A DNA stretch of 64,000 bases from Maricaulis maris MCS10 (GTDB lineage Bacteria > Pseudomonadota > Alphaproteobacteria > Caulobacterales > Maricaulaceae). Positions 4,412 to 56,434 of this stretch are shown piece after piece. Under the pieces are notes generated by a model. The model worked only from the letters and a program-made list of their open reading frames with translations, searched no databases and was not told the origin of the DNA. The position numbers and the translations under genes are program-made. The stretch spans positions 1,311,501 to 1,375,500 of the forward strand of contig NC_008347.1 in NCBI RefSeq assembly GCF_000014745.1. The letters run 5' to 3'. Numbering within the stretch: position 1 is the stretch's first letter; every line of letters begins with the position of its first letter.

Positions 4412-5889
4412 GCGTCCACCAGGAAGGAAAGCTGGAATTCCTTGGCCGAAAGATCACGGTCGTGATCGGCCAGCAGGGTCGGGTATTCACCCGTGAAATA
4501 ATGGTCTGCGAGCTGGGGCAGCTTGTCATTGCGCGGCGCGCCGATGACAGCCTGGTAAAGGCCATTCACCGTCAGGAAGCCAAGGCTGTCGGCCTCCAGC
4601 TTGGTGGCCATGTCCTCGACGGACATGTTGGCAGCGATCAGCTCGTCACGGCCGGCCATGTCGATACCGTAAAAATCGGGGTGTTTGATGGGTGGGCAGG
4701 CCGAGCGGAAATGGACTTCCACGGCACCGGCTTCGCGCATCATGCGGACAATCTTCAGGGAGGTCGTTCCGCGCACGATCGAATCGTCGATCAAAAGCAC
4801 GCGCTTGCCCTTGACCACAGCCGCATTGGCCGCGTGCTTGCGACGCACAGACAGGTCGCGCCGGTCCTGGGTCGGCTGGATGAAGGTGCGTCCGACAAAG
4901 TGCGAGCGGATGATACCGAGCTCGAACGGGATACCGGAGGCTTCGGAAAAACCGATCGCTGCGGGCACACCGCTATCGGGGACGGGGATGATGACGTCGA
5001 CATCGGCCGGTGTCTCCAGCGCCAGCTGGCGCCCCATCTCCTTGCGGGCTTCGTAGACACTGCGGCCCTCGATCACTGAATCCGGGCGGGCAAAGTAAAT
5101 GTATTCGAAGGCGCAGATCTGGGCCGGGCGCGCCGGCGAGAAACGCTCCGAGCGCAATCCGTCCTCATTGACCACAACCGCTTCGCCGGGCTCGATTTCG
5201 CGTTCGAACTTGGCACCGACCATGTCGAGCGCACAGGTTTCCGACGCGAACACATAGGCGTCACCCAAGCGGCCCATGACCAGCGGTCGAATGCCGAACG
5301 GGTCGCGGGCGACGATCAGCCGGTCATTGACGACAGCGACGAAGGCGAAGGCGCCCTGGACCTGTTTGAGCGCCGACAGCACCCGATTGGTCAGCTTGCT
5401 CTTCTTCGACAGGGCGGCGAGATGCAGCACCACCTCACTGTCGGAGGTCGACTGGAAAATCTGGCCGTGATTGACCAGTTCTTCGCGCAGGACGCGGGCA
5501 TTGGTCAGATTGCCGTTGTGGGCGAGGGCGATGCCGCCGCCTCGGACGTCGGCGAACAGAGGCTGCACATTGCGCAGCACCGAGGCGCCCTGGGTGGAAT
5601 AGCGCGCATGGCCGATGGCGACGCGGCCGGGCAGGCGTTGCGGCATGTCGGGTGAGGTGAAGTTCTCACCGACGAGGCCGAGATAGCGTTCAATATGAAA
5701 ACGCGACCCGTCATGGGTCGCGATACCGCAAGCTTCCTGGCCTCGATGCTGCAGCGCATGGAGGCCGAGCGCGGTCAGGATGGAGGCGTCGTCTGCGCCA
5801 TATACGGCGAACACGCCGCATTCTTCCTGAGGGCGATCACTCTCCGGATCGTAGGTCAGTGTGGCGGGAATGGCGCTGTGGTCGCTCAT
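4408..5889 (-). CDS. purF: Amidophosphoribosyltransferase PurF
   Basis: PurF makes 5-phosphoribosylamine from PRPP and glutamine, the first committed step of purine synthesis. The nucleophilic Cys follows a short propeptide in EECGVFAVYG, so the N-terminal Ntn glutaminase domain probably needs propeptide removal. The glutaminase domain continues through GHARYST and LAHNGNLTN. The PRPP loop LLIDDSIVRGTTS marks the phosphoribosyltransferase domain. The length of 493 residues is normal. It overlaps cvpA upstream and the SDR gene downstream by four bases each. The cvpA-purF pairing is widely conserved and supports both calls. Confidence 0.95.
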   Translation of the reverse strand: MSDHSAIPATLTYDPESDRPQEECGVFAVYGADDASILTALGLHALQHRGQEACGIATHDGSRFHIERYLGLVGENFTSPDMPQRLPGRVAIGHARYSTQGASVLRNVQPLFADVRGGGIALAHNGNLTNARVLREELVNHGQIFQSTSDSEVVLHLAALSKKSKLTNRVLSALKQVQGAFAFVAVVNDRLIVARDPFGIRPLVMGRLGDAYVFASETCALDMVGAKFEREIEPGEAVVVNEDGLRSERFSPARPAQICAFEYIYFARPDSVIEGRSVYEARKEMGRQLALETPADVDVIIPVPDSGVPAAIGFSEASGIPFELGIIRSHFVGRTFIQPTQDRRDLSVRRKHAANAAVVKGKRVLLIDDSIVRGTTSLKIVRMMREAGAVEVHFRSACPPIKHPDFYGIDMAGRDELIAANMSVEDMATKLEADSLGFLTVNGLYQAVIGAPRNDKLPQLADHYFTGEYPTLLADHDRDLSAKEFQLSFLVDA

Positions 5890-31871: not shown

Positions 31872-33452
31872 TCAGCCGGCCTCGATGACCAGGATTTCCA
31901 TCGGGATATCGCCGTCCGGGCCGAATTCCTCTTCGAAGCGTCGGGTCAGCGCCGCGATCGCCGCCTCGACATCTCCGTCATTGCGGCGGATCTGCCCGGC
32001 GACGGGATTGCCCAGAATGAGGCCGTGCGCGAACGCCTCGAGATCGGCCTTGCTGTGGACCCGGGACAGGATGTCGATCCGGATATCTGTAAATCCGGCG
32101 GCCCGCAGATCGGCCTCAATCGTCCCGGCATCGTGATAGCTGTAGGGGACGGCATAGAAGCTGGGCTCGTCCTTGCCGATCAATGGCGCAACGACGCCAT
32201 CCGCGATTTCGGCAAACGGGTTGGTCGCCCAACTGCCCCAGACATTGAACACATAACGACCGCCCGGTTTGAGAACCCGACGGGCCTCGCGATAGGCGGC
32301 GACCTTGTCCGGGAAGAACATCACGCCGAACTGGCAGGTGATCGCGTCAAATTCCGCGTCGGGGTAATCAAGCGCGCTGGCATCGGCGGTGTTGAAGGTC
32401 ACAGCATCCGGATCGCCGGTACGCTGGCGGGCGATGGTCAGCATGTCGCCATTCAGGTCCGTCGCTTCCAGCCTTGCACCGTCGGGCAGGCGGGCGAGGA
32501 GCTTCTCGGTGAGGATGCCGGTTCCAGCTGCCAGTTCCAGCAAATGACTGCCGGCCGAGACCGGGACCCGACCTGCGAGGTCGCCCGCGTGGTGATCGAA
32601 CAGGACCGGGCCGAGATAGCGGTCATAGGCGGCCGGGATATCGCCCTCGAAGCGCGCGGTCACCGCTGTCTCACCGGATCTGGCCTGACCCGCGCCGCTG
32701 GCGGGTGGTTCGCTGACATCGCGGAACAGGAGCATCGAACCGATCCGTGACGACGCACCGTCCCAATACCCGTTCTCGGCCGCGAATTCCTTCGGGTTCT
32801 TGAAGGTCCCGAAGATGATGTCGAACAGGGGCAGGTCCGAGAAGTTCTTGTCGTGGACGCCGCGCTCATGATGGTGGCTGTGGCTTTCGGGGCGTTGCAG
32901 GAAAAAGCCGAGCCAGCGTGGCGTGCGGATATTGGTGTGCTGGAACAGGGCGAGGAAGGTCGTCGCCAGCAGGGTGACCGTGATGGCCTGTTGCTCGATC
33001 CCGACCAGAAGGGTGAGGCCCAGACTGCCGACAAAGGCAAAGCCGATGGAATCGAGCGGACTGAAATAGAAGGCGCCGAATGTGTCGACCCGCTCGGCAC
33101 TGTGGTGAAGCTGGTGAAAGCCCAGCCACAGGAAACGATTGCCGTGCATGGCGCGGTGCCAGACATAGACCCCGAATTCAAAGACAAGAATGCCGACCGC
33201 GCTGCCGCCCAGAAGGCCCAGCCCGCTGAGGTCGAACAGCTGATAGGGGGCCAGCAGCGGGTCCCAGATCATGGGCAGGTAGGCGGAGAGGAAGAAATAG
33301 GCGGTGAACATGACCAGCGCCCGAAATCGCCACCCCTTGACGGCCGGCAGCTTGCGCGCCGGGAAGATCGCTTCGATCACGATCATGGTGGCGAACAGGC
33401 CCAATATCGCGAGCGATACCGGATCCAGCAGTACTTGAATTGGTGTTGGCAT
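31872..33452 (-). CDS. Fusion of a fatty acid hydroxylase (sterol desaturase family) and a SAM methyltransferase
   Basis: This 526-residue protein joins two complete domains. Residues 1-about 240 form a membrane di-iron hydroxylase with several membrane helices and the three histidine clusters HRAMH, HQLHH and HSHHHERGVHDKNF. Residues about 270-526 form a class I SAM-dependent methyltransferase with LLELAAGTGILTEKLL, LEATDLNGDML, FDAITCQFGVMFFPD and VLKPGGRYVFNVWG. A Ser/Gly/Ala-rich linker joins them near 250-265. The hydroxylase family modifies lipids, and the methyltransferase half is UbiE-like, so a lipid hydroxylated then methylated is a reasonable guess. The natural substrate is unknown. 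The frame is continuous with no sign of a sequencing join. Confidence 0.88.
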   Translation of the reverse strand: MPTPIQVLLDPVSLAILGLFATMIVIEAIFPARKLPAVKGWRFRALVMFTAYFFLSAYLPMIWDPLLAPYQLFDLSGLGLLGGSAVGILVFEFGVYVWHRAMHGNRFLWLGFHQLHHSAERVDTFGAFYFSPLDSIGFAFVGSLGLTLLVGIEQQAITVTLLATTFLALFQHTNIRTPRWLGFFLQRPESHSHHHERGVHDKNFSDLPLFDIIFGTFKNPKEFAAENGYWDGASSRIGSMLLFRDVSEPPASGAGQARSGETAVTARFEGDIPAAYDRYLGPVLFDHHAGDLAGRVPVSAGSHLLELAAGTGILTEKLLARLPDGARLEATDLNGDMLTIARQRTGDPDAVTFNTADASALDYPDAEFDAITCQFGVMFFPDKVAAYREARRVLKPGGRYVFNVWGSWATNPFAEIADGVVAPLIGKDEPSFYAVPYSYHDAGTIEADLRAAGFTDIRIDILSRVHSKADLEAFAHGLILGNPVAGQIRRNDGDVEAAIAALTRRFEEEFGPDGDIPMEILVIEAG

Positions 33453-34146: not shown

Positions 34147-34217
34147 GTGCATAACGCGTTGCGCGGGCGTGCGGCGCTGCCTAACTGCGCTCGCAGAGTG
34201 GTGTGAGGAGTTGCGCG

Positions 34218-34844
34218 ATGGACATGCCCCTGATTGCCAGCCTGGTGACCTTCGTCGTGATCATGTCCGTCACGCCCGGCCCCAATAATATCATGATGAT
34301 GTCGTCGAGCGCCCTGTTCGGGGTGCGGGCAACGCTGCCGCATTGGCTGGGCGTGAATTTCGGCTTCAACCTGCTCTTGATCGCTTCGGTGTTCGGACTG
34401 GGTGAGTTGATCGGGCGTTTCCCGGTCATGCTGGATGTGGTCCGGATTGGCGGTTCGCTTTGGCTGGTCTGGATGGCGTGGAAATTCGCCCATGCCGGTT
34501 GGGCTATCGGCAAGGCCGGCAGCCGCGCGGCGACCGCCAGGGAAGACCGCTCGCGCCCCTTCCGGTCCTGGGAGGCTGCGCTGTTCCAGGCGATCAATCC
34601 CAAGGCCATCCTGATGGCGGTCTCGACGGCAGGCGCCTATGTCGCGCTGGCCGACACGCCGATCGAACGGGTCGGTATTTTCGTGACCGCCTTCATCCTG
34701 TTCGGCGCGCCCTGCGGTTTGCTCTGGATCTTCGTCGGTGGCGGTCTCAAGCGCCTGCTGGCCGAAGGCGCCTCGGCGCGCTGGCTGAACTATGCCATTG
34801 CCGGCATCCTGATGTTCACGATCTGGTTGATCCTGTCGGCCTGA
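34218..34844 (+). CDS. LysE/RhtB-family amino acid exporter
   Basis: This is an inner-membrane exporter of 208 residues with about six hydrophobic segments. The family motif MSVTPGPNNIMMMSSSALFG is near the N-terminus, and a second conserved stretch is FQAINPKAILMAV near residue 130. Members export amino acids or related metabolites; the substrate here is unknown. The start at 34218 has AGGAG at 34206-34210, seven bases upstream; an in-frame GTG at 34203 lacks such a site. It follows the ndk terminator and is 73 bases upstream of the adenine deaminase gene. Confidence 0.86.
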   Translation: MDMPLIASLVTFVVIMSVTPGPNNIMMMSSSALFGVRATLPHWLGVNFGFNLLLIASVFGLGELIGRFPVMLDVVRIGGSLWLVWMAWKFAHAGWAIGKAGSRAATAREDRSRPFRSWEAALFQAINPKAILMAVSTAGAYVALADTPIERVGIFVTAFILFGAPCGLLWIFVGGGLKRLLAEGASARWLNYAIAGILMFTIWLILSA

Positions 34845-34917
34845 GCCGCAGGCCGCCCCTTGCGTGGAGCGGTAACGCAGCAGACCATGGCGCTCCCCCA
34901 AGCGCCGGAGAGCTGCC

Positions 34918-35934
34918 ATGTCCGATATCGCCCGTCTCGTGCAAGCCCTGCCCAAGGCTGAACTTCACCTTCACATCGAAGGCTCGCTCGAGCCGGAATT
35001 GATGTTCGAGCTGGCCCGGCGCAACGGGATCGAAATCCCCTTCAACTCGGTCGAGGAAATCCGCGCCGCCTACGATTTTTCCAACCTGCAGGATTTTCTC
35101 GACGTCTATTATGTCGGCATGAATGTGCTGATCACCGAGGCGGATTTCTTCGATCTGACCTGGGCCTATCTCCAGCGTGTCGACGCCGAGAATGTCCGCC
35201 ATGTCGAGATCTTCTTCGACCCGCAGGGCCATACCGATCGCGGCATCGCCTTCGCGACGGTGGTGGACGGGATCACCCGGGCGCTGGACAGGGCCAAGTC
35301 GGAGCTCGGCATCACCTCGAAGCTTATCCTGTGTTTCCTGCGTCACCTGTCCGAGGAGGCGGCTTTTGAGACGCTGGAAATGGCCAAGCCGCACCTGGAG
35401 CGCATCGACGGTGTCGGTCTGGACAGTTCCGAGCTCGGTCACCCGCCGTCGAAATTCCAGCGCGTCTTCGCCGCTGCCGGCGAGCTGGGCCTGCTGCGGG
35501 TCGCCCATGCCGGTGAGGAGGGGCCGCCGGAATACATTCATGAAGCGCTGGACCTGCTGAAGGTCGACCGTCTCGATCACGGCAATCGCGCCCTGGAAGA
35601 CGGCACTCTGGTCGCCCGCCTTGGCCGCGAACAGATGACGCTGACGGTCTGTCCGCTCTCCAATCTGCGCCTGTGCGGCATCAAGCGGCTGGAAGACCAC
35701 CCCCTGAAACGCATGCTGGCGCTGGGCCTGCGGGCCACGGTCAATTCCGACGACCCGGCTTATTTCGGCGGCTATGTGAATGACAACTACATCCGCACCG
35801 CCGCCGCCATCGACCTGAGCGCCGACGAGATCATCGAACTGGCGAAGAATTCTTTCCGCGGCGCTTTCCTGCCGGAGGCGGAGATCGAGCGCCATCTGGC
35901 GGAGATTGATGCGGTGGTGGAGGGCGTGGCCTGA
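34918..35934 (+). CDS. Adenine deaminase of the adenosine deaminase family
   Basis: This 338-residue zinc amidohydrolase should convert adenine to hypoxanthine. The metal site HLHIEGSLEPELMFEL is at the N-terminus. Further motifs are FFDPQGHTDRGI, VAHAGEEGPPEYI, LDHGNRALEDG and NSDDPAYFGGY. The segment GLDSSELGHPP, in place of the GIDLAGDE type seen in adenosine deaminases, points to the adenine-specific branch. A GAGAG lies just before the ATG. A damaged copy of its 3' end lies 1.1 kb downstream at 37078-37304. Confidence 0.85.
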   Translation: MSDIARLVQALPKAELHLHIEGSLEPELMFELARRNGIEIPFNSVEEIRAAYDFSNLQDFLDVYYVGMNVLITEADFFDLTWAYLQRVDAENVRHVEIFFDPQGHTDRGIAFATVVDGITRALDRAKSELGITSKLILCFLRHLSEEAAFETLEMAKPHLERIDGVGLDSSELGHPPSKFQRVFAAAGELGLLRVAHAGEEGPPEYIHEALDLLKVDRLDHGNRALEDGTLVARLGREQMTLTVCPLSNLRLCGIKRLEDHPLKRMLALGLRATVNSDDPAYFGGYVNDNYIRTAAAIDLSADEIIELAKNSFRGAFLPEAEIERHLAEIDAVVEGVA

Positions 35935-36052
35935 TTGTTTTGATCTGCCCCTGAAGGTTTCGATCTGAGCTTGTCCAAATGTGGCGGGATCAGTCCGTCA
36001 TAGTCTGGCCCAATTCTTTCGCGCATTTTTACCCATATCAATCTGGGGGTGT

Positions 36053-36916
36053 ATGATTATGCTGGCGACTATGATTGCGATGCTGGTGGCTCTGCAGGAG
36101 CCGTCAGTCGCCGAGTGCGGGCTGATATCGGGGGCTGATACCTTGCTGGACGAGGCTGACGGCCGGCTCGTCCTGTTGGGCGAGCTTCATGGCACGCAGC
36201 AGGCCCCGGCGTTTACGGCAAGCCTGATATGCCAGGGTGTCGCGCGTGGCGATCATACCATCCTCGGCCTGGAGATGAGCGCGACCGAACAAGACCGGCT
36301 GGAGGCCTATCTGTCGTCCGACGGCAGCGAAACCGCCATTGCCGCACTGACCGCCGGGTCGTGGTTCTGGGAGAGCAGTCGGGATGGCCGTTCCAGCATT
36401 GCAATGCTGTCTCTGATAGACGCGGTGCGCCGCCATCGCGCGGCGGGCGCCTCAATTGACCTCGTCGCAGTAGATTTCGACCCGGTCGCCGATGCGGACC
36501 TGGACGATACTCCGCACATTCGGGATCAGGCCATGCTGCGCCGGGCGCGGCGTTTTATCGGCGATGCGGACAACATCTTGATCCTCGTCGGCAATGTCCA
36601 TGCTCGCAGGACGCCATTTGTGTATGGGGACTTGCATTTGGAAACGATTGGCTCACTTGCCAACCCGGATGAAGTTTACAGTCTTCGGCTGGGTGTTCTC
36701 GGTGGTGAAGCCTGGTCCTGTCGTCGCGCCGATGGCGTGACCGAATGCGGCCCTCATGCCTCAGCCGGCTATGTCGATTTGGGCGAACACCGTGTCATGT
36801 CGTTGGATGAAGCGATCGAGGCCGGGGTGCTCGGGATCGAGGCTGATGCCTACCACCGCTATGTTTTCCTCGGTGAGAGCGACGTCTCCCGACCGCTCTT
36901 GGCGCCAACTGATTGA
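36053..36916 (+). CDS. ChaN-like protein with GELHGT motif
   Basis: This 287-residue protein resembles the ChaN/haem-binding uptake family (also related to erythromycin esterase-like and TIKI folds). It has LVLLGELHGTQQAPAF near residue 45, ILGLEMSATEQDRLEAYL next, and ILILVGNVHARRTPFVYGD near residue 195, the usual second conserved site. A weak hydrophobic N-terminus (MIMLATMIAMLVAL) may act as a signal. I chose the ATG at 36053 after GGGGGT. Substrate or ligand is unknown. The stop codon is one base from the convergent arfB remnant. Confidence 0.72.
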   Translation: MIMLATMIAMLVALQEPSVAECGLISGADTLLDEADGRLVLLGELHGTQQAPAFTASLICQGVARGDHTILGLEMSATEQDRLEAYLSSDGSETAIAALTAGSWFWESSRDGRSSIAMLSLIDAVRRHRAAGASIDLVAVDFDPVADADLDDTPHIRDQAMLRRARRFIGDADNILILVGNVHARRTPFVYGDLHLETIGSLANPDEVYSLRLGVLGGEAWSCRRADGVTECGPHASAGYVDLGEHRVMSLDEAIEAGVLGIEADAYHRYVFLGESDVSRPLLAPTD

Positions 36917-36917
36917 C

Positions 36918-37077
36918 TCAATCGTCCTCCGAGCCCGGCTTGCGCCGTCTCGATTTTGCCTGCGCTTTCGGGACCTTGTCTGCTTTCGCCCGCTTGATCG
37001 ACGCGAGGGAAGGCCGCGCTTTTTTGCGGGGCTTGGGCGCGATCAGCGCCTGTTCGATCAACTGGCGCAGGCGGTCA
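36918..37077 (-). pseudogene. Truncated arfB 3' remnant (first copy)
   Basis: Read on the minus strand this segment encodes the tail of ArfB (RLRQLIEQALIAPKPRKKAR and then SRRRKPGSEDD). Its first 34 bases from 36924 are identical to the intact arfB at 41944, and the rest is diverged but alignable up to the GCGGTCAC near 37078. There the match stops and the deaminase remnant begins. It lacks the GGQ domain, so it cannot make a working factor. Its stop codon is one base from the ChaN-like gene's stop. Confidence 0.85.
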
Positions 37078-37304
37078 CCGCTGCCGGCGAGCTGGGCCTG
37101 CGGGCCACGGTCAATTCCGACGACCCGGCTTATTTCGGCGGTTGTGTGAATGACAACTACATCCGCACCGCCGCCGCCATCGACCTGACCGCCGACGAGA
37201 TTATCGAATTGGCGAAGAACTCCTTCCGCGGCGCTTTCCTGCCGGAAGAAGAGATCGAGCGTCATCTGGCGGAGATTGAGGCGGTGGTGGAGGGCGTCAG
37301 CTAG
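37078..37304 (+). pseudogene. Remnant of the adenine deaminase gene with internal deletion
   Basis: Bases 37078-37101 match 35471-35494 of the intact deaminase gene, and 37091 onward matches 35721 onward. The two source segments share GCTGGGCCTGC, so 237 bases (79 codons, in frame) appear to have been lost between these short repeats. The rest encodes NSDDPAYFGGCVNDNYIRT through to the C-terminus VVEGVS. Differences from the intact copy are mainly synonymous. There is no start, zinc-site N-terminus or catalytic core, so it is not a functional enzyme. Confidence 0.88.
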
Positions 37305-37416
37305 CGGACAAGATGGGCAGCTGCCTGCCGGTGTTCGCAATACCCATTTGGAATTAAAGGCATACGAGCTGCCCGTATCCTGTATAGTGGCCGCAAACCA
37401 GTTTTAGGGGCGGAAC

Positions 37417-38898
37417 ATGCGGGCATTGATTTCGATTTCGATCATGGGACTTTCGTTGCTGACCTCGACCGCTGCGGTCGAGGCGCAGGCCAATCAGGAG
37501 CGGGTGATCCCCGAACATATTCTTGTCCGGGTCATGCCGCGAGATCTGGTGGGGGTCGATTTGAGCGGCGCCGCGCTGGCAGATGTAAGCTTCGAGCGGG
37601 TTACCATGTCCGGCGCGAACATGTCCGGCGCAAATCTCAGCCGATCCCGGTTTCCGGATGCCAATCTGGACCGCGCGGATCTCTCGAATACCGATCTGAC
37701 CGAGGCTGACCTCTCCACGGGAAGATTTGTCGGCGCAAACTTTCGAGGTGCTTTGCTGCGCAACACCTCCCTGACCGGTGCCAATCTCACCGGCGCGGAT
37801 CTGACAGGGGCCCGGGAACTGGGCTATGAGATCAATCAGGCCCGCCTTTGCAATACTCGCCTGAGCGCAACAGTGGTCCTCAATCGCGATTGTGTGGAGC
37901 TTGGAGTGCGTGCCGAGACGCGCCATCTCGTTGATCGCAACGCCCAGCAGCGTCTCCTGCAAAACCGGGCCTGTGTCGGCTGTGATCTTCGCTTTGCCCA
38001 GGCCGCCAACGCGTCGCTGATTGGCGCCGATATCTCCCGCGCCCTGCTGACCGATGCCAATCTGTCGGGCGCGAACCTGTCTGGGGCCAACCTCGTCGAC
38101 GCCGAGCTTACCCGCACCAATTTTGCGCGTGCCAATCTGTCGAATGTGAGTTTCTCCGGCCGTCCATTGCCGCGCAATGTGATATTCACCGGCACCATTC
38201 TTCGTGGCGCCAATCTTTCTGGCCAAGACCTCACGGGGCTCGACTTTCAGGGCGCCGACCTGTCCCGAGCCAATGTCGAGGCGGCCGAAATCGATCGCAC
38301 GACATTGCTCCGGGATGCCCGCCTGACCGGACTGGACCTGAGCCATGCCTCCTTGAGCCAGGCGATTTTTCCGGGAAATGACTTTCGCACCATCAACCTG
38401 ACCGGTGTGCAGATTTACGGGATGGTCCTGACCGGCGCCAATTTCACCTCTGTCGAGTTGTCGAATGCCCGGATTGTTGAGAGCAACATGCAACGGGCCA
38501 TCCTTGCCGGTGCCAATCTGTCCTACGCCGACCTTTCCGGGATTGACCTTGCTGGCGCCGATCTGACCGGTGCCGACTTGAGTGGAGCCAACTTGATCGG
38601 CGCTGATCTGACAGGCGCCAACCTGACTCGCGCCAACCTGACAGGGGCCATCCTGTTCGGGACCGATCTGACGCGTGCGATCCTGGCCAATGCCCGGTTG
38701 AACTCGGCTCAACTGGTCGGCGCCCAGCTAAGCGGCGCCCGGCTCGACTCGGCGGACCTGACGGATGCCAATCTTTTTGGCGCGCAGAACGCGGCCAGCA
38801 TCCCGGTCTCCGGCACCATGACCTTCTGCCGCACCAGGATGGCAGACGGGAGTGACCGCAGCTCCAGCTGTGGGGCTGCGGTTTCGTCGCCGAAATAG
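37417..38898 (+). CDS. Exported pentapeptide-repeat protein (493 residues)
   Basis: This protein has a signal peptide (ISIMGLSLLTSTAAVEAQA) followed by long runs of A(D/N)LXX pentapeptide repeats, which fold as a right-handed beta-helix. Two repeat blocks, about residues 45-140 and 185-460, are separated by a non-repeat stretch with Cys residues and the motif ACVGCDLRF. The C-terminus carries CRTRMADGSDRSSSCG. Roughly 60 repeats are visible. The function is unknown; exported members are not expected to be DNA-gyrase mimics of the Qnr type. It lies between two arfB remnants. Long antisense open frames across it are a by-product of the repeat codons. Confidence 0.85.
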   Translation: MRALISISIMGLSLLTSTAAVEAQANQERVIPEHILVRVMPRDLVGVDLSGAALADVSFERVTMSGANMSGANLSRSRFPDANLDRADLSNTDLTEADLSTGRFVGANFRGALLRNTSLTGANLTGADLTGARELGYEINQARLCNTRLSATVVLNRDCVELGVRAETRHLVDRNAQQRLLQNRACVGCDLRFAQAANASLIGADISRALLTDANLSGANLSGANLVDAELTRTNFARANLSNVSFSGRPLPRNVIFTGTILRGANLSGQDLTGLDFQGADLSRANVEAAEIDRTTLLRDARLTGLDLSHASLSQAIFPGNDFRTINLTGVQIYGMVLTGANFTSVELSNARIVESNMQRAILAGANLSYADLSGIDLAGADLTGADLSGANLIGADLTGANLTRANLTGAILFGTDLTRAILANARLNSAQLVGAQLSGARLDSADLTDANLFGAQNAASIPVSGTMTFCRTRMADGSDRSSSCGAAVSSPK

Positions 38899-38905
38899 CC
38901 GTCTG

Positions 38906-39080
38906 GTCCTCAGATCCCGACTTCCGGCGTATCGACCTGGTTTGTGACTTCTGCGCTTTCGCGGCTTTCACGCGTTTGATCGACGCCAGGGATGGCCGCG
39001 CTTTCTTGCGAGGCTTCGCGGCGAGGTCGAATCGCAGCTGGACGGTACTCTCGGTCTTGTTGATGTGCTGGCCATCCCGA
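38906..39080 (-). pseudogene. Degenerate arfB remnant (second copy)
   Basis: Read on the minus strand the segment begins with codons matching the middle of ArfB (near 42225-42290 of the intact gene). It then jumps to the tail region KAAKAQKSQTRSIRRKSGSED. The segment between, about 170 bases with respect to the intact copy, is missing, so the frame lacks part of the body and the GGQ end. It begins 7 bases after the stop of the pentapeptide gene and ends at the S41 peptidase stop. Similarity is lower than in the first remnant. Confidence 0.78.
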
Positions 39081-39086
39081 GCCCGG

Positions 39087-40562
39087 TCACTCTGTGCCTG
39101 ACCGCTCCTGGATGAGGGCGATCAGCTGGTCGAGGACGACATCATCGCGCCCGCGCACGACCGGAAAGTCGAGGCGAATGTCGGGTGTGACCGGGTGTGA
39201 AACAAGGTTTCCGTTCGGCCGCACGATATGGGCTTTGGGATAGCCAACCGCGATGCCGGTCTCGGCGAGCGTGAAGGTTTCCATCGCGCCATAGGTGGTC
39301 GCCATGTCGGCCGTCACTTCGCCAACGATCTCGCCGAAACCATAATCCTGCACGAGGGCCGCGACGGAAACCGCATTGGAGAAGCTGTAGCGATTGACCA
39401 GCACATAGACATCGCCCTCGAACCGGTCGTCAGCCGGTCGCGGTTGGGCGTATGGCAGGTCGATCTCGATCAGGTCGCCAGCCGGCGTTGCATCGTAAAG
39501 CTCGGCATAGGTCGCTGTCATGCCGCTGGGCACGTCCATGGCGTCGAACCGCGCCTGATTGGCAGCCGTGCTTTGCGGGCTGACCCGGACCGTGAAGCGT
39601 GAGGAAAACCGGAATGGTTGATCGGCCACCCAGGCCAGCATCGGGTCGGAGAATGAATTGTCGCCACCGGGATTGTCGCGCAAGTCGATGATCAGGTGTC
39701 GTGCTCCGGCTGCACGGAAAGCCAGGAAGCTGTCATCGACAAACCGGATGAAATCGGTCGGATCCCACACATCGCCACCGGGCTCGATGTTGAAGAATGC
39801 GAAGGGGCGCAGATAAGCGGTTTGCCCGCCCAGCATCCTCGCGTCCCGGGAATCGAGACGGAAGGGTTCCTGCCGCCCCTCCAGGGCTGCTGCCATATCC
39901 TCGCTGTTGCGAAACTCCACCTCGATTCGCGACCGCTGACCGTCGACATGCCGGACATCGAGCACCACCTCGGTGAGATCCGGCCACTCCTGCCAGATGA
40001 GGGGGCGTAGCTGGAACTCCAGGATGGTCTGACCGAAGCGAGGGGTTTCAGCGGAAACATGTCGCAGCAGGCGGGGCATCCATACGGTATTGGGCAGGTC
40101 ATTCAGGCTCAGGATTTCGTCGCCCGGCTGCAAGGCGTCGGCGGTGGATGCATTCGTTTCCACAAAGACCCGCCCGGAGCGAATTGAAAGGGTTAGAGGC
40201 AGGACCCGCCCGCCCGCCGCGCGAAAGGCCTGGTAGGCCTCACCGCCGGTTTGTATGCGGGCATGAGCGTGGCGAGCGAGCGCTGTGAATACCTGGAATT
40301 CCCGCGCGATCTCCGGAACTGACATCGGTGTATCGAATCCCGCTCGCATCTCGGCATGGCGCTGATCCATGACCGACTGCGGGGTCGCCGCGTACAGATC
40401 GGCGTGGGCTTCGCGCAATCCGGCATAAAGCTGGTCAAAATCCGTGCGAATGGCTTGTGGCGAGAACAGCCGAGGCGCCTCCGCCTCGGCGTCGGTCGGC
40501 GATTGTGCGTCGCCTTGCCCGGCGATCAAAACGGCGAGGCAGAGGGTGAATTGCTTGAACAT
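39087..40562 (-). CDS. Exported S41-family peptidase
   Basis: This 491-residue protein has a signal peptide (MFKQFTLCLAVLIAGQGDAQ) and a tail-specific-protease-like (S41) domain. A PDZ-like segment DALQPGDEILSLNDLPN is near residue 145. The catalytic region has LIIDLRDNPGGDNSFSD and VNRYSFSNAVSVAAL, where the Ser of SFSNA is the likely nucleophile. GEVTADMATTYGAMETF follows. It may degrade or process envelope proteins; the substrate is unknown. It is divergent from the CadC-like regulator across 138 bases, which suggests it is a target of that regulator. Confidence 0.85.
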   Translation of the reverse strand: MFKQFTLCLAVLIAGQGDAQSPTDAEAEAPRLFSPQAIRTDFDQLYAGLREAHADLYAATPQSVMDQRHAEMRAGFDTPMSVPEIAREFQVFTALARHAHARIQTGGEAYQAFRAAGGRVLPLTLSIRSGRVFVETNASTADALQPGDEILSLNDLPNTVWMPRLLRHVSAETPRFGQTILEFQLRPLIWQEWPDLTEVVLDVRHVDGQRSRIEVEFRNSEDMAAALEGRQEPFRLDSRDARMLGGQTAYLRPFAFFNIEPGGDVWDPTDFIRFVDDSFLAFRAAGARHLIIDLRDNPGGDNSFSDPMLAWVADQPFRFSSRFTVRVSPQSTAANQARFDAMDVPSGMTATYAELYDATPAGDLIEIDLPYAQPRPADDRFEGDVYVLVNRYSFSNAVSVAALVQDYGFGEIVGEVTADMATTYGAMETFTLAETGIAVGYPKAHIVRPNGNLVSHPVTPDIRLDFPVVRGRDDVVLDQLIALIQERSGTE

Positions 40563-40700
40563 CTGGGTCTCTCATGGCTTCCTTGGGGCGGGGCAAGGCC
40601 CGTCGTTGAAAACGGTGAAGTCTTCGCCGGTCGATCACCATGACGAGAGTTTCCCGTCTATCTGACTTTTTTCTGACCGGAAAAAGGAATCCGTAATTCA

Positions 40701-41939
40701 ATGGATTACAGCAAGCCATTTCTCCTTGGCGCATGGCGCGTCGAGCCGTCTTCCTGTGAGGTGACCGGTCCGGAAGGGGTCCGGGAGCTGGAACCCAAGG
40801 TGATGGATTTGTTGTGCCTGCTGGCTGAAGCCAAAGGAGAGGTCGTTTCGCGCGCAACCATCTCCGCCCGGATATGGCCCGGTGTCACGGTGAATGAAGA
40901 TGCCATGGGGCGTTGTGTCTGGAAGTTGCGCCGTGCCCTTGGAGACCCGTCGCGCTCGCCGCGTTATGTCGGAACTGTTCCGAAGCGGGGCTACCGACTG
41001 CTCGAGCCGGTGAGCGCGATACCGGTCAGCCCGGCGATGATTGCGCGCCTGGTACCGAACTGGATCTGGGGTGTCTGCGGTGCCTTGCTGTTGCTGGCCG
41101 CGTTTCCGGCCTATTGGCTGGCCCGTGACCAGGTCGCTGCCAATTCCGCCCCTGAGGATCGCGCCCTGCAACTCGTCGATCGCGCCGAGGGTTTTTACTA
41201 CCAGTTCGAATATGACGCGAACGAGGCGGCGATGCGGCTCTACGAGGCCGCCCTCGAGTTGGAGTCCGACAATGCCCGGGCCTTGGCCGGGTTGGCCAAT
41301 ACAATAACCCAGCGCGTCATACGCGGTACGGTGGATGAATGGCCGGCCGAGCTCGGTACGTCGCGCATAGGCAATGCCGTCGCAAACCGGATCGGCGATC
41401 AGGAAGACGCGGCGCGTCGGCTCGATCGGGCGGAATCTCTGGCTCGACGGGCCATTGCCGCGGATGCGGACTATCCGCTTGGCTACCGGGCCCTTGGCCT
41501 GTCGCTGTCGGCACAAGGGGCACTGGACGCCGCGGTCGAGGCTTATAATCAGGCCCTGACGATAGATCCGGACGCCTGGGAGGCGTGGATCAACCTGTCC
41601 GACATCCACTCCATTCGCGGTGAGGATGATCTTGCACTGACCTATCTGGAACGCGCCTATGACGCGATGGGTCGGGTTTATGACGACCAGACTGTGCTGG
41701 TGCGCCCGTGGTACAGTCCCATGGGTTTGATGATTGCCCGCGACCATGCCGCGCGATCAGATCCGGTGACGGCCGAATTCTGGTACCGGCGAGTGCTGTA
41801 CTGGGATCCCTACAATCGCGAGGCGCTTTCTGAGCTGGCCGAGCTGCTGCGGGCGAATGGCGATGCGCCTTCTGCTGAGGCATTGTGCGCTGAAGGAATT
41901 GCCCGGATCGGGGATGCAACCCTGTGTGACGGACCTTGA
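40701..41939 (+). CDS. CadC/ToxR-like membrane transcription regulator with TPR sensor
   Basis: The 412-residue protein starts with a winged-helix domain of the OmpR type (WRVEPSSCEVTGPEGVRELE, then LLAEAKGEVVSRATISARIW and RYVGTVPKRGYRLLEP). One membrane helix at about residues 119-138 follows (WIWGVCGALLLLAAFPAYW). The C-terminal part is TPR-like helical repeats (ALAGLANTITQRV, AIAADADYPLGYRALGLSL). This is the ToxR/CadC layout with a periplasmic TPR sensor. It sits next to a divergent S41 peptidase. Its stop is one base from the convergent arfB stop. Confidence 0.85.
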   Translation: MDYSKPFLLGAWRVEPSSCEVTGPEGVRELEPKVMDLLCLLAEAKGEVVSRATISARIWPGVTVNEDAMGRCVWKLRRALGDPSRSPRYVGTVPKRGYRLLEPVSAIPVSPAMIARLVPNWIWGVCGALLLLAAFPAYWLARDQVAANSAPEDRALQLVDRAEGFYYQFEYDANEAAMRLYEAALELESDNARALAGLANTITQRVIRGTVDEWPAELGTSRIGNAVANRIGDQEDAARRLDRAESLARRAIAADADYPLGYRALGLSLSAQGALDAAVEAYNQALTIDPDAWEAWINLSDIHSIRGEDDLALTYLERAYDAMGRVYDDQTVLVRPWYSPMGLMIARDHAARSDPVTAEFWYRRVLYWDPYNREALSELAELLRANGDAPSAEALCAEGIARIGDATLCDGP

Positions 41940-41940
41940 G

Positions 41941-42360
41941 CTAGTCCTCCGAGCCCGGCTTGCGCCGTCTCGATTTTACCTGTGACTTCTGGGCCTTGGC
42001 CGCTTTCACCCGTTTGATCGACGCCAGGGATGGTCGGGCTTTCTTGCGTGGTTTCGGGGCGATCAGCGCCTGTTCGATCAGCTTGCGCAGGCGGTCACGG
42101 GCATCGCTACGATTGCGCTCGCGTTCGCGGTGGCTATCGGCTTTCAGGACCAGGCTGCCATCCTTGGTCATGCGTGAGCCGGCCAGCCGCACCAGACGGC
42201 GCTTGGCGGCGTCGGGCAGGGTGGTGTTCGCGGCGAGGTCGAAGCGCAGCTGGACGGCGCTCTCGGTCTTGTTGACATGCTGGCCACCGGGACCGGAGGC
42301 GCGGATGAAACGCTCCTCGATCTCGGCCTCGTCGATCAGGATGGTCTGGGCAATCAGCAT
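41941..42360 (-). CDS. arfB: Alternative ribosome-rescue factor ArfB
   Basis: ArfB releases peptides from ribosomes stalled without a stop codon, acting through a release-factor-like GGQ domain and a basic tail. The motif SGPGGQHVNKTESAVQLRFDL is visible with the GGQ near residue 25. The tail KPRKKARPSLASIKRVKAAK followed by SRRRKPGSED is the ribosome-channel-binding part. The start at 42360 (MLIAQTILID) gives 139 residues. Two broken copies of its 3' end lie at 36918-37077 and 38906-39080. Here the gene is intact and ends one base from the CadC-like gene. Confidence 0.93.
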   Translation of the reverse strand: MLIAQTILIDEAEIEERFIRASGPGGQHVNKTESAVQLRFDLAANTTLPDAAKRRLVRLAGSRMTKDGSLVLKADSHRERERNRSDARDRLRKLIEQALIAPKPRKKARPSLASIKRVKAAKAQKSQVKSRRRKPGSED

Positions 42361-42428
42361 GACAGACTCCGCAAGCACGCCTCCTTATTGCCGTGCTTGC
42401 GGGTCTGATCGCAAGTGAGCTTGCCCGG

Positions 42429-42905
42429 TCATGCGAGGGCGGCGAGCAGGAAGCAGGCACAGGTGAGGACGGCCCCGGCTGTGCGAACATGGTTCCAGCC
42501 GCTCCACCGCTCGACATATTGCGGCCAGTAGGCGGATGTGCCGTCCGGGTCACTGGCCAGTGACTGCAGGCGGTTGTTCATCGGTATATTGCGCAGCCCG
42601 GTGACCAGCAGGACCGGCCCGACATGGCTGGCCATGCCCAGTCCCAGCCAGATCGCCATGCCCGGCCGCCCGAACAGGAAGGCGGCCACGGCCAGGGCCA
42701 GGGCGAGCGGCACCAGGGCTTTCAACAGCACCAGGAAAATTGACTTGTAGACCGTCCGGTTGAGGCCGCGCATGGCATCGGCGCCGCCGCCCGGCCCGGC
42801 CTTATCGAGACCGGGCATGACGAAGTCGGAGAAGGCGAGGAAGATGCCGGCGATGAGGCCGGCACCGAGACCCAGTAATTGGGCGAGTAGGGTCAGGGCG
42901 ATCAT
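42429..42905 (-). CDS. DUF1772 (anthrone oxygenase-like) membrane protein
   Basis: This 158-residue protein has about four hydrophobic segments and the DUF1772 pattern: an N-terminal GLGAGLIAGIFLAFSDFVMP, a middle SHVGPVLLVTGLRNIPMNN, and a late SGWNHVRTAGAVL. The family includes anthrone-oxygenase-like proteins, but most members lack a proven function. It overlaps the NmrA-like gene start by four bases and follows it in the same operon, under the TetR gene's divergent control region. The role is uncertain. Confidence 0.78.
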   Translation of the reverse strand: MIALTLLAQLLGLGAGLIAGIFLAFSDFVMPGLDKAGPGGGADAMRGLNRTVYKSIFLVLLKALVPLALALAVAAFLFGRPGMAIWLGLGMASHVGPVLLVTGLRNIPMNNRLQSLASDPDGTSAYWPQYVERWSGWNHVRTAGAVLTCACFLLAALA

Positions 42906-43759
42906 GACGCCAGCCCGGCAGCGGGTGTGGCGGCCCAGGCATCGGCCGGAACCGAGGCGGCGTAGTCGGCAAAGCTGCGCGGAGGCCGGCCCAGGGCCCG
43001 TTCGACACCGTCCATGACCCGGGCATTGCGACCGTCCAGCACGGTCGAGAACAGATAGTCGAGCAACCAGATATGATCCTGTGGCAGGCCGGCGGCGCGG
43101 GCGCCGTCGATAAAGGCCTGGTGCGGAATGTCGACATGGCGGACCGGACGGCCGGTCCGCTCGGTGATCAGGGCCGCTATATCGGCAAAGCTCAGCAATT
43201 TCCGACCGGTCACTTCATAGAGCTGGCCGTCATGCTCGGTGCCGGTCAGCGCCGCGACCGCGATATCGGCAATGTCGCGGATATCGATGAAGGGTTCGGC
43301 GGTCTGTCCGACCGGCAGGGCGAGTTCTCCGGCCGCGACCATGGGCTGGAAGGCACCCTGGTCGAAATTCTGGAAGAACCAGCTCGAGCGGATCACCGTC
43401 CAGCGCAGCCCGCTCTGGCGGATGATGGTCTCGCTGGCTTGCGCCTCGGGTTCACCGCGCCCGGACAGCAGGACGAGTTGCTCCACGCCGGCTTTGCGGG
43501 CGCGGTCGGTGAAGGCGGCGATGTCGTCCGGGGCGCCGGGCACGGCGAGATCCGGCGCATAGGCGATATAGACCGAGCGCACACCCTGCAGGGCATGGTC
43601 CCAGCCATCACGGTCCTGCCAGCTGAACGGGCGTTCGGCATCGCGGGAACCGGGACGGACAGGGATATTGCGCGATTGCAGCGCATTGACGATGAGGCGG
43701 CCGGTCTTGCCGGTGGCGCCGAGGACGAGGATGTCGGCAGGTTGGTCGATGGCGGTCAT
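42902..43759 (-). CDS. NmrA-like NAD(P)-binding oxidoreductase
   Basis: This is an atypical SDR of 285 residues with the NAD(P) motif VLGATGKTGRLIVNAL near the N-terminus. It belongs to the NmrA/quinone oxidoreductase-like group and lacks the classical YxxxK seen in FabG. Further segments are LLSGRGEPEAQASETIIRQS and SSWFFQNFDQGAF. It may be a redox sensor or quinone reductase. It is transcribed with a DUF1772 gene and divergent from a TetR regulator across a region with nested dyads, so it is probably TetR-controlled. Confidence 0.85.
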   Translation of the reverse strand: MTAIDQPADILVLGATGKTGRLIVNALQSRNIPVRPGSRDAERPFSWQDRDGWDHALQGVRSVYIAYAPDLAVPGAPDDIAAFTDRARKAGVEQLVLLSGRGEPEAQASETIIRQSGLRWTVIRSSWFFQNFDQGAFQPMVAAGELALPVGQTAEPFIDIRDIADIAVAALTGTEHDGQLYEVTGRKLLSFADIAALITERTGRPVRHVDIPHQAFIDGARAAGLPQDHIWLLDYLFSTVLDGRNARVMDGVERALGRPPRSFADYAASVPADAWAATPAAGLAS

Positions 43760-43774
43760 GGCGGTTTCCTTTGA

Positions 43775-43834
43775 CTTGACGCGGTGTAAACTTTACATGG
43801 CGTCAAGCGCCACTGACTTGACGTCGTGTCAAGT
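43775..43834. promoter_or_regulatory. Nested and adjacent dyads, likely TetR operators
   Basis: A dyad of TTGACGC and GCGTCAA (43776-43806) encloses a second dyad TGTAAA/TTTACA (43785-43797) with the same centre at 43791. A second site at 43816-43834 has ACTTGAC/GTCAAGT arms around five bases. Both lie between the NmrA-like gene (start 43759) and the TetR gene (start 43892). They are typical of operators for the neighbouring TetR regulator; binding is inferred. Confidence 0.6.
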
Positions 43835-43891
43835 GCAATCAATCCTGCGCCGGACCGCGTCGTTGCGGCGGCAAGTGGAAAGGCCGGGGCC

Positions 43892-44482
43892 ATGCCGGAT
43901 GATGGAATGTCGACGCGCGAGCGGATCTTGCGGGCTTGCTGGACCCTGCTCGAGAAGGGACAGGGCGCGAAGACCCGCATGAGCGATATCGCCAGGGCTT
44001 CCGGCGTCAGCCGCCAGGCCGTGTATCTGCATTTCAGTACCCGCGCCGAGCTGTTGATCGCGGTGACCCGATTCGTTGATGCCGAGAGTGATATCGATGC
44101 CCGCCTGGCTGCCAGTCGGGCCGCGATGTCAGGCCCGGAAAGGCTGGACGCCTTCATTGACGCCTGGGGCAATTACATCCCGGTCGTGCATCCGGTCTGT
44201 CGTGCCTTGCTGGACATGGCGCCCGCCGATGAGGCTGCGAAACTGGCCTGGGATGACCGGATGTCAGCCCTTCGCGAAGGCTGCATGGCCGCGGTCACTG
44301 CCTTGAAAACAGACGGAATTCTGCGCGACGGCCTGGATGAGGCCGCGGCGACTGATCTCTTGTGGACCCTGTTATCGGTCCGCAATTGGGAAAGCCTGGT
44401 GGAGGACTGCCACTGGACGCAGGCGCGCTATGTCGAAGCGATGAAGCGGCTCGCCCGACAGGCCTTGATGCGGACCGGTTGA
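43892..44482 (+). CDS. TetR-family transcriptional regulator
   Basis: This 196-residue protein has an N-terminal HTH of the TetR type (RERILRACWTLLEKGQGAKT, then ISRQAVYLHFSTRAELLIAV-like MSDIARASGVSRQAVYLHF). The C-terminal ligand-binding domain is helical and unrecognised. I chose the ATG at 43892; an in-frame GTG start at 43826 would put part of the operator in coding sequence. It is divergent from the NmrA-like/DUF1772 pair and convergent with purN, 18 bases away. The likely role is repression of the divergent pair and itself. Confidence 0.85.
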   Translation: MPDDGMSTRERILRACWTLLEKGQGAKTRMSDIARASGVSRQAVYLHFSTRAELLIAVTRFVDAESDIDARLAASRAAMSGPERLDAFIDAWGNYIPVVHPVCRALLDMAPADEAAKLAWDDRMSALREGCMAAVTALKTDGILRDGLDEAAATDLLWTLLSVRNWESLVEDCHWTQARYVEAMKRLARQALMRTG

Positions 44483-54915: not shown

Positions 54916-55637
54916 GAGCGGGCCTCCTTGGTGGCCTGGCCCTCGGCTTCGAGGGCACGGGTGCGGGTTTCGATGGTCAGTTTCAGGCGCGGCAGGAAAT
55001 CGTCGCGTGGCAGGCCGGGCGGTATTGCATCGAGGAATTCGATGACGGCAGGGCCGGGATGCTTGGTCCAGCGGTTCTGCGGCCAGCGCAGCCCGCTATT
55101 GGTGGCGACCGGGATCACCGTCCGCTCGAGGGTTTCATACATCAGGTGCACGCCCTTTCGGTAGCGGAAGCTCTCGCCGACCGGTGGCAGGCGGCCTTCC
55201 GGATAGATCAGCAGCGGGCGCGGATCGTCGGCGGCGGCATTGATGGCTTCGGCCAGGGCCCCCTGGGCGCCGGTCAGGCCCGGCGAGTTGACCATGGTCG
55301 CACCGGACACCCGGATGATGCGGCCGACCAGCGGGAATTTGCCGATCTCATTGCCGATCACGAAATTGATGTCGCCCATGATTGCCATCATCAAGAAGCC
55401 ATCGGCCCAGGACTGGTGCTTGGCGGCGATAATGACGGCCTGTCCCGTCGGCGGTGTGCCGCGTACATCGACCGGGGCACCGAGAATGTAGCGCATCAGG
55501 CCGCGAACAGTCCGGCAGGCGGCGCGCATCAGTGTCCGTACGCCGGCACGCCAGCCGCTGAAACTGATCACCCAGGTGATGAGCGCGAAGACGATGAGGG
55601 TTGGCCAGAAGATGAAGTTGAAGATGAATGAGCGCAT
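54912..55637 (-). CDS. PlsC-type lysophospholipid acyltransferase 1
   Basis: This 241-residue membrane enzyme has an N-terminal hydrophobic segment (FIFNFIFWPTLIVFALITW) and the HX4D acyltransferase motif in AAKHQSWADGFLM. Later PEGRLPP and GVHLMYETLERTVIPVATNSG fit the 1-acylglycerol-3-phosphate acyltransferase family. It should transfer an acyl chain to a lysophospholipid or lysophosphatidate. Its stop overlaps the start of the LplT-like gene by four bases. The upstream paralogue at 55673-56434 is 35 bases away. Confidence 0.86.
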   Translation of the reverse strand: MRSFIFNFIFWPTLIVFALITWVISFSGWRAGVRTLMRAACRTVRGLMRYILGAPVDVRGTPPTGQAVIIAAKHQSWADGFLMMAIMGDINFVIGNEIGKFPLVGRIIRVSGATMVNSPGLTGAQGALAEAINAAADDPRPLLIYPEGRLPPVGESFRYRKGVHLMYETLERTVIPVATNSGLRWPQNRWTKHPGPAVIEFLDAIPPGLPRDDFLPRLKLTIETRTRALEAEGQATKEARS

Positions 55638-55672
55638 CGGATCCTCCCCGGATCGACAGGCGGGTCTGCGTC

Positions 55673-56434
55673 TTACGCGCAGATCACCGATTGTCCGGAT
55701 GGAGCGTGCGACGGATTGGCGGTCGGCGCAAACTCGGCCTCCAGAGCGCGTGAGCGGGTCTCGACGCGGGTCTGCAGTTCGGCCAGGTCAGCATCGCGGT
55801 TGCCGCTCGGCTGGATCGGATCGAGGAAGTCGATCACCGCCGTGCCCTTGAATTTCGACCATTTTTGTTGCGGCCAGCATTGGCCCAGATTGGTTGCGAC
55901 CGGCACGATCGGACGCTCCAGGGCGCGGGCCATGTGCCAGACGCCGGAACGAAAGCGCATGCCGGTACCAACCTCGGTCAGATGCCCTTCCGGATAGATC
56001 AGGACCGGGCGCGGACGCCCTTCACCCTGCGAGCGGACAATGCCGGCCATCAGGCTTTCACGCGCCGCCGGGCCGCCCTGGTTGGACAGGATGATGGCGC
56101 CGCAGCGCTTCAGCACCCAGCCGATCAGCGGGAATTTGAGCATGTGGTCACCGCAGACGAAATTTACATCGCCACACTTGGCCATCATCACAATGCCGTC
56201 GCCCCAGGACTGGTGCTTGGCACCGATCACCACCGGCTGGTCCTTGGGCGGGGTGCCGCGCACCTCGATTTTGATGCCGCAGACCAGGCGCATCAGGATC
56301 AGCGTGGCGCGGGCATAGGAGCGCAGCCCGTGCATCAGCACGGTGCGGCCCGGGATCAGCGCCAGAACGGCGCAAATGATGGCGTAGAAGCCGGAGAGGG
56401 ACCAATAGGCGATATTGAAGATGAAAGAGCGCAT
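55673..56434 (-). CDS. PlsC-type lysophospholipid acyltransferase 2
   Basis: This 253-residue paralogue begins MRSFIFNIAYWSLSGFYAII and has the motif GAKHQSWGDGIVMM with His and Asp of HX4D. The later EGHLTEV and FRSGVWHMARALERPIVPVA regions match its neighbour. The two proteins are clearly related, sharing the start MRSFIFN, but differ elsewhere, so this is an old tandem duplication rather than a recent copy. It is the first acyltransferase of the run and lies 57 bases after the TetR gene. Confidence 0.86.
   Translation of the reverse strand: MRSFIFNIAYWSLSGFYAIICAVLALIPGRTVLMHGLRSYARATLILMRLVCGIKIEVRGTPPKDQPVVIGAKHQSWGDGIVMMAKCGDVNFVCGDHMLKFPLIGWVLKRCGAIILSNQGGPAARESLMAGIVRSQGEGRPRPVLIYPEGHLTEVGTGMRFRSGVWHMARALERPIVPVATNLGQCWPQQKWSKFKGTAVIDFLDPIQPSGNRDADLAELQTRVETRSRALEAEFAPTANPSHAPSGQSVICA

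Follow-up and report, generated by a model that had tools for sequence, protein, structure and literature searches.

How does a bacterial genome gain genes at a fixed site that holds no mobile element? Such gains have mostly been inferred from many genomes at once. Here we describe a single locus that displays the steps, the interval between the housekeeping genes add (adenosine deaminase) and arfB of Maricaulis maris MCS10, in a window of 64,000 nucleotides (nt) that comprises positions 1311501–1375500 of the single-contig, 3368780-base genome (NC_008347.1; G000 in the comparisons below). Among the relatives, the site is found empty or occupied by one or two cassettes, and a swap between species has its crossover inside a housekeeping gene; the window itself holds a scarred chain. 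We consider it likely, with a probability of roughly 0.62, that imports were added end to end at this integrase-free add–arfB hotspot, at least two of them through an illegitimate join, and that gene tails were left behind as scars.

Analysis of the window confirmed most of what an initial annotation, made from the sequence alone, had reported for the array (Table 1). A ChaN-like gene, a pentapeptide-repeat gene (pentaA) and a CadC-like regulator gene do each end 1–7 bases from an arfB sequence (gene ends at 36916, 38898, and 41939). All three arfB 3′ ends, two in broken tails and one in the intact gene, are real, the remnants now being placed at 36924–37077 and 38903–39074, and alignment reproduced the exact run of 34 bases shared by remnant 1 and the intact tail (36924–36957). 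The inventory of three modules also stood, although a broken add end after remnant 1 had been missed and the third module holds an S41-family peptidase gene as well, divergent from the CadC-like gene. The name ChaN is a weak one, the Pfam score lying just below its cut-off. All cargo genes in the window are still open. Pfam and NCBIfam identification revealed no recombinase, integrase or transposase among the window genes between add and arfB, and no cargo gene matched a PADLOC model up to E 0.01 (five proteins compared), which gives no indication of an anti-phage role.

Table 1. Features of the add–arfB array, with positions in the window.
Feature	Positions	Strand	Remarks
add, adenosine deaminase, intact	34918–35934	+	Pfam PF00962; NCBIfam NF006850 above cut-off; left boundary of the array, proposed homologous anchor
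ChaN-like gene, cassette 1	36053–36916	+	PF04187 at 27.1 bits, cut-off 27.7
arfB remnant 1, codons ~88–139, stop codon lost	36924–37077	-	86% to intact arfB
Junction of arfB remnant 1 and add nt 554	37077–37078	.	~1 bp common to both sides
add remnant	37078–37304	+	24 nt = add nt 554–577, then nt 804 to stop codon
Pentapeptide-repeat gene (pentaA), cassette 2	37417–38898	+	PF00805
arfB remnant 2, codons 100–139 joined to codons 26–44, stop codon lost	38903–39074	-	174-nt deletion
12 nt of uncertain origin from remnant 2 to S41 stop codon, possibly a weak arfB continuation	39075–39086	.	
S41-family peptidase gene, module 3	39087–40562	-	PF03572
CadC-like winged-helix/TPR regulator gene, module 3	40701–41939	+	PF00486 and TPR
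arfB, intact; right boundary of the array	41941–42360	-	NCBIfam NF006718 above cut-off; PF00472

The repeats of the array, 72–207 nt long and 74–94% identical, derive from two genes, add and arfB. In whole-genome searches remnant 1 matched intact arfB at 86% over 155 nt (E 1.8e-47), and remnant 2 matched it twice, at 81% over 122 nt (E 1.1e-26) and, in the 5′ half of arfB, at 88% over 72 columns (E 6.5e-18). The internal deletion of remnant 2 is bounded by imperfect 10-nt repeats (TTCG[G/C]GGCGA). The broken 3′ end of add directly abuts remnant 1; its first 24 nt are identical to add, and from add nt 804 on the identity is 94%. This remnant lacks 237 nt, and the gap is flanked by two 11-nt direct repeats (GCTGGGCCTGC). 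Because repeats of 10–11 nt bound both gaps, both scars seem to have shrunk through short-repeat deletions after they had formed.

To place the array among its relatives, we compared 19 Maricaulis genomes, the window's own included; add was found in 16 of these and arfB in all 19. Wherever add was present (16/16), arfB was its convergent neighbor, and G008, G015, and G018 had no match to add in the genome and none at the locus. The gap between the two genes is empty (under ~20 nt) in eight of the 16 genomes (G001, G003, G004, G005, G006, G011, G013, and G014), and in the three empty junctions that were read by eye (G001, G003, and G013) the stop codons of add and arfB overlap. The other eight (G000, G002, G007, G009, G010, G012, G016, and G017) have cargo in the gap. 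A ChaN-like gene, with 64–66% amino acid identity to that of the window, is the sole cargo in G002 (add-ChaN-arfB), and pentaA, with 94%, is the sole cargo in G016 (add-pentaA-arfB). The order in G007 is add-S41-CadC-pentaB-arfB, pentaB being another pentapeptide gene; G007 carries the nearest genus relatives of the window's S41 gene (68% amino acid identity), likewise between add and arfB, and of its CadC-like gene (79%). The comparison proposed in the initial annotation thus found arfB beside a likely ancestral neighbor, add, with other modules at the same spot. An additional record, IN14 (L058), has an add–arfB gap of ~490 nt. A wider comparison of the best 80 of 567 loci showed no such pairing beyond the genus: arfB was near add in all of the 13 closest loci (12 titled Maricaulis; L065 titled Alphaproteobacteria bacterium) and in none of the remaining 67 (tblastn matches above 80 aa and 40% only, with some loci cut by contig ends). 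The G016 assembly has a contig break (C75, C16) inside arfB at this locus, possibly due to strain variation at the site.

Scars like those of the window were not seen elsewhere. Same-strand self-comparison of 19 other loci (matches of at least 50 nt, E up to 1e-8) detected no add or arfB duplication, and the matches that were found lay within pentapeptide genes or upstream of ndk. Spacers longer than 40 bp in 17 of these 19 loci (G004 and G006 left out) gave weak short matches only. The add–arfB gap of IN14 has 41 nt at 76% to add nt 960–1000 (E 7e-5), with CadC and S41 matches similarly strong there, and a spacer in G018 has 55 nt at 67% to add (E 0.001); both were taken as chance.

The variation extends over the whole interval from ndk to purN, whose gene set comprises lysE, ChaN-like, S41-CadC, DUF4197, add, pentapeptide A and B, arfB, anthrone-oxygenase-like, NmrA-like and tetR-like genes. 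We counted 15 gene orders among 20 ndk–purN loci, or 14 if both kinds of pentapeptide gene are merged (unassigned open reading frames (ORFs) were ignored; the right end is cut off in G016 and the left end in G006). Cassettes that relatives have one or two at a time follow one another in the window, which thus chains alleles that are found elsewhere. A ChaN-like gene is found upstream of add in G001, G004, and G006 (distant, 39–40% amino acid identity) and downstream in G000 and G002, and DUF4197 lies upstream in G013 and G014 and downstream in G009 and G010. S41-CadC lies upstream of add in ten genomes (44–52% amino acid identity to that of the window); G000 and G007 have it within the add–arfB gap, and in G008 and G018, which lack add, it adjoins arfB. 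Because relatives of S41-CadC are present in the ndk–purN interval of 14 of the 19 genomes, the window's included, this module is probably an older resident.

By eye, several of the convergent gene ends (e.g., in G001, G013, G010, G007, and G017) have stop codons that overlap in CTAG. Some S41 and arfB ends also start alike (CTAGTCC...), which might offer a short stretch of homology for swaps. In G003 (L135) the ndk–add interval holds, at 4414–5253, a 279-aa ORF that appears transposase-like by eye, next to a PfpI-like ORF.

Exchange between species was evident for the pentapeptide cassette. An alignment of 1994 columns, from the add tail through pentaA, shows 91.7% identity between the window and G016. 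The short spacers that flank pentaA correspond as well, the one between pentaA and remnant 2 to the pentapeptide/arfB spacer of G016. The synonymous divergence (dS) between the two genomes is 0.85 for add codons 1–240, 0.14 for add codons 269–335, 0.16 for pentaA and 0.63 for arfB, with values of 0.34 for rpoB and 0.44 for ndk (for rpoB the strand was picked by fewer stop codons, and rpoB had no match in four of the 19 genomes). Eleven genome pairs were scanned for switches in add by the maximum-chi-square method, with 500 permutations each; in G000–G016 this placed a switch at nt 655, ~360 nt inside the gene, and none of the 500 permutations was as strong. The corresponding numbers were also 0 for G002–G016 and G007–G017, 1 for G007–G016, 4 for G016–G017 and 16 to 145 for the rest. 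In the tree of the add body G016 grouped with G017 (99%), and in that of the add tail it did not. The pentaA gene and the add tail have crossed species between the G000 and G016 lineages, and the pattern fits a homologous exchange, in either direction, with crossovers inside add and close to the arfB stop codon. Varied cargo between fixed flanks, the lack of a recombinase and recombination in the flanking core genes characterize the add–arfB site as a hotspot. A second mosaic was seen in the add genes of G007 and G017 (L136, L139), which differ by 0.079 up to nt 329 and by 0.213 beyond it (0/500 permutations).

In two other comparisons the cargo is older than its flanks. Between G000 and G002, dS is 1.10 for the ChaN-like gene versus 0.11 for the add tail, 0.30 for the whole of add, 0.27 for arfB and 0.16–0.18 for the next three genes; it is 0.51 for purN, 0.61 for purM and 0.33 for rpoB. 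Between G000 and G007, it is 1.10 for S41 and 1.19 for CadC versus 0.63 for add and 0.64 for arfB. The ratios of non-synonymous to synonymous divergence of the cargo genes in their nearest pairs are ~0.12–0.25 (pentaA with G016, ChaN with G002, S41 and CadC with G007), and therefore these genes look maintained. With the ChaN-like gene set aside, the genes from lysE to tetR (window ~34203–44482) have a dS of 0.16–0.37 to those of G002, versus 0.51–0.61 for the adjacent purN and purM and 0.33 for rpoB, which suggests that a longer tract was exchanged between these lineages.

The composition of the chain, the one- and two-cassette alleles elsewhere, the transfer of the add tail and pentapeptide gene across species and the sequences of the junctions were all observed. 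A one-sided (homology-facilitated illegitimate) route, the sequence in which events took place and a vehicle are inferred. Maricaulis lineages would carry alternative cargo at the add–arfB site (none, ChaN-like, the pentapeptide kinds, DUF4197, or S41-CadC with a pentapeptide gene), and foreign copies of the locus would normally recombine homologously in add and arfB, one cassette replacing another. In the lineage of the window, at least two imports would instead have been added, with one end paired with the resident add and the other end, the arfB of the import, joined illegitimately to resident DNA. On the most parsimonious view, the resident allele at the start would have been an old add-S41-CadC-arfB, like that of G007 minus pentaB. 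A first addition, which would account for the right-hand join, would have set a pentapeptide cassette ending in arfB remnant 2 before S41-CadC. A later one, accounting for the left-hand join, would have brought a ChaN-like cassette whose end, arfB remnant 1, was connected back to add at nt 554, and would have pushed the resident add tail and everything behind it rightward. The redundant tails would then have been trimmed by deletions between the 10–11-nt repeats, while the cargo genes stayed open. A crossover in add, as observed for the G016 exchange, would have occurred in both of the window's own additions. The sequences joined at 37077/37078 have ~1 nt in common, as expected of an illegitimate end, and the join at 39075–39086 is of uncertain origin. 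The initial annotation had likewise envisaged modules added successively at one place, without an integrase in the add–arfB interval, and on this point our results agree with it.

Are the arfB remnants captured alleles or local copies? Remnants 1 and 2 differ from each other at 31 of 117 sites, 21 of them third codon positions, and working arfB genes of different species differ at 14–32 of 117 sites (15 pairs). With the stop codon included, third positions account for 8 of 12 differences between the main and duplicate add, 14 of 23 between intact arfB and remnant 1, 16 of 23 between intact arfB and remnant 2 and 22 of 33 between the two remnants. As the intact side of such comparisons is constrained anyway, we used a unique-change test that counts remnant-specific changes at positions where six working arfB genes all agree. 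Such changes occur in remnant 1 at 4 of 81 first and second positions versus 3 of 10 third positions (p = 0.027), and in remnant 2 at 3 of 63 versus 4 of 9 (p = 0.004); when both were pooled, 7 of 19 third positions were changed versus 7 of 144 elsewhere (p = 0.0002). The same test on working arfB genes gave p = 0.013 (G007), 0.068 (G017), and 0.16 (G016). In this test the remnants look like working arfB: their unique changes favor third codon positions, so most of their divergence arose while they still functioned, prior to being cut.

Several observations weigh against the account proposed here. For the add duplicate, the unique-change test gave p = 0.027 versus three close copies and p = 0.48 versus six. 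The first 24 nt of the add remnant are those of the window's own add, whereas five other species differ at 5–8 of these 24, and the best match to remnant 1 is the arfB of the window itself (85%); both of these findings also fit local duplication. In the add tail, identity to G016 is 95.1% for the main copy of the window and 92.2% for the duplicate, and therefore the duplicate tail cannot be called G016-derived; support in the add tail tree is weak (52–62%). An import of the whole duplicate add tail from a G016-type locus is unsupported by these identities and by the 24-nt match to the window's own add. The arfB tail of remnant 2 shows no particular closeness to that of G016 (80% identity, with 84% to that of G002 and 81% to the window's own). 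Decay has gone further in remnant 2 than in remnant 1, in keeping with the proposed order, yet the add remnant beside remnant 1 has the larger deletion. No donor with both a ChaN-like cassette and a remnant-1-like arfB was found among the compared relatives, and the compared remnants are 117–206 nt long, so that the rates rest on few sites. Derivation of remnant 2 from the arfB of the window itself is not favored, the pentapeptide/arfB spacer corresponding to that of G016.

Repeated local duplication had been put forward in the initial annotation, and as a tandem duplication of a segment that starts inside add and ends inside arfB, followed by a cargo swap in one unit and trimming deletions, it remains a rival. 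Such an event would leave just the kind of junction that is found between remnant 1 and add, and it would agree with the 24/24-nt match between the add remnant and the resident add and with the closeness of remnant 1 to the resident arfB. The occurrence of ChaN-like, S41-CadC and DUF4197 genes on both sides of add is also expected from duplication and differential loss. However, since the cargo of one unit must later be swapped, cassette exchange is needed here too; none of the 20 loci showed an array of repeated cargo; and the divergence of the two remnants lies in the between-species range and falls largely on third positions, with unique changes that look constrained. Of the two accounts, we regard one-sided import as likely and tandem duplication with a swap as possible but doubtful.

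The initial annotation had also considered an integrative element that left copies of the arfB tail. Insertion of modules at the arfB 3′ end by such an element, or by an integrase acting in trans, with the target tail duplicated as attachment sites, would explain why every module ends 1–7 nt from an arfB 3′ end and why cargo genes end near arfB in several other genomes. The scars, however, consist of ~150–230 nt of diverged coding sequence from two genes, the add tail among them, rather than of short identical repeats, and the remnants differ as arfB genes do between species. In addition, there is no recombinase among the window genes between add and arfB, the G016 switch lies well inside add, and self-comparison of the empty loci (at least 50 nt, E up to 1e-8) showed no repeat. 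We reject attachment-site duplication by an integrase because of the repeat length, the divergence and the add sequence in the scar, and we judge an integrative element of any kind to be very improbable. Equally improbable is vertical inheritance of ancestral modules with differential loss and no exchange. The S41-CadC relatives in 14 of 19 ndk–purN intervals indicate that this module may be old, but the dS contrasts across add, pentaA and arfB (G000–G016) and across the ChaN-like gene and its flanks (G000–G002), the 15 gene orders in 20 loci and the presence of broken add and arfB pieces all speak against descent alone. For the pentapeptide cassette, it is disfavored by the dS contrast together with the chi-square switch in add.

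If one-sided import is correct, a gene-transfer agent is a possible vehicle. The gene-transfer-agent marker GTA_TIM was identified in 19 of 19 genus genomes and in one of 14 control genomes, Caulobacter vibrioides, and PMC9632790 gives ~8.3 kb as the load of Caulobacter gene-transfer agents, which exceeds one cassette plus flanks. We suggest, tentatively, that the stacking of alleles followed by loss of redundancy might regularly drive gene gain and the reshuffling of gene order here, with the window as a caught intermediate. If true, this would explain why ChaN-like, S41-CadC and DUF4197 genes are found on either side of add.

Among the closest parallels are the type VI orphan immunity-gene arrays of Vibrio cholerae, for which PMC5361080 (2017) proposes sequential addition, with displaced parts and with one homologous and one illegitimate end. 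As described there, those arrays resemble the window in their successive additions at one locus, older parts shifted back, simpler forms in other strains and lack of an integrase, and also in the displaced 3′ end of a gene (there the effector's) and the homologous anchor on one side with an illegitimate join opposite. Unlike the window, where two housekeeping genes are the anchor, anchor and cargo are there effector-immunity modules and the effector is displaced; the window's cargo had no PADLOC match and all of its genes are open. Hotspots without mobile elements, at which exchange proceeds by recombination at flanking core genes (PMC5635113, 2017), share with the add–arfB site the variable cargo between fixed core genes, the absence of an integrase and recombination in the flanks. 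For these, double homologous recombination, i.e., replacement, is proposed, whereas the window adds the scars of non-replacing joins. Homology-facilitated illegitimate recombination, as outlined in PMC3240628, likewise has one homologous and one illegitimate end, but was studied in experiments with incoming DNA, whereas here it would be read from old scars. Duplications made by transformation also give adjacent redundant copies that can later be lost; those reported span ~100–900 kb, whereas the units of the window look like distinct alleles a few kb long rather than identical copies. Additive transfers via homologous recombination in flanking regions are considered possible in PMC11375855, where no word starting with "illegitimate" occurs.

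Literature on Maricaulis (adenosine deaminase; gene transfer agents) yielded nothing on this locus as judged by title or start of abstract, a statement confined to those papers, and among the matches listed for illegitimate recombination, hotspots, cassettes and housekeeping genes there was none on such a locus by title. Each ingredient has already been published; what makes the array a good case is that simpler relatives, a crossover that can be located and legible junctions at housekeeping genes occur together. We take it to be a genuine and well-kept scar of allele stacking at a hotspot that has no integrase. It also offers a concrete locus for measuring how often imports add instead of swap, in a genus in which every genome compared has the GTA_TIM marker.

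Two further features of the window lie outside the array. A long ORF at 31872–33452 by eye fuses a fatty-acid-hydroxylase-like part and a methyltransferase-like part, and at 54942–56434 there are two neighboring stretches of ~700 nt with 62% identity, perhaps tandem paralogues.

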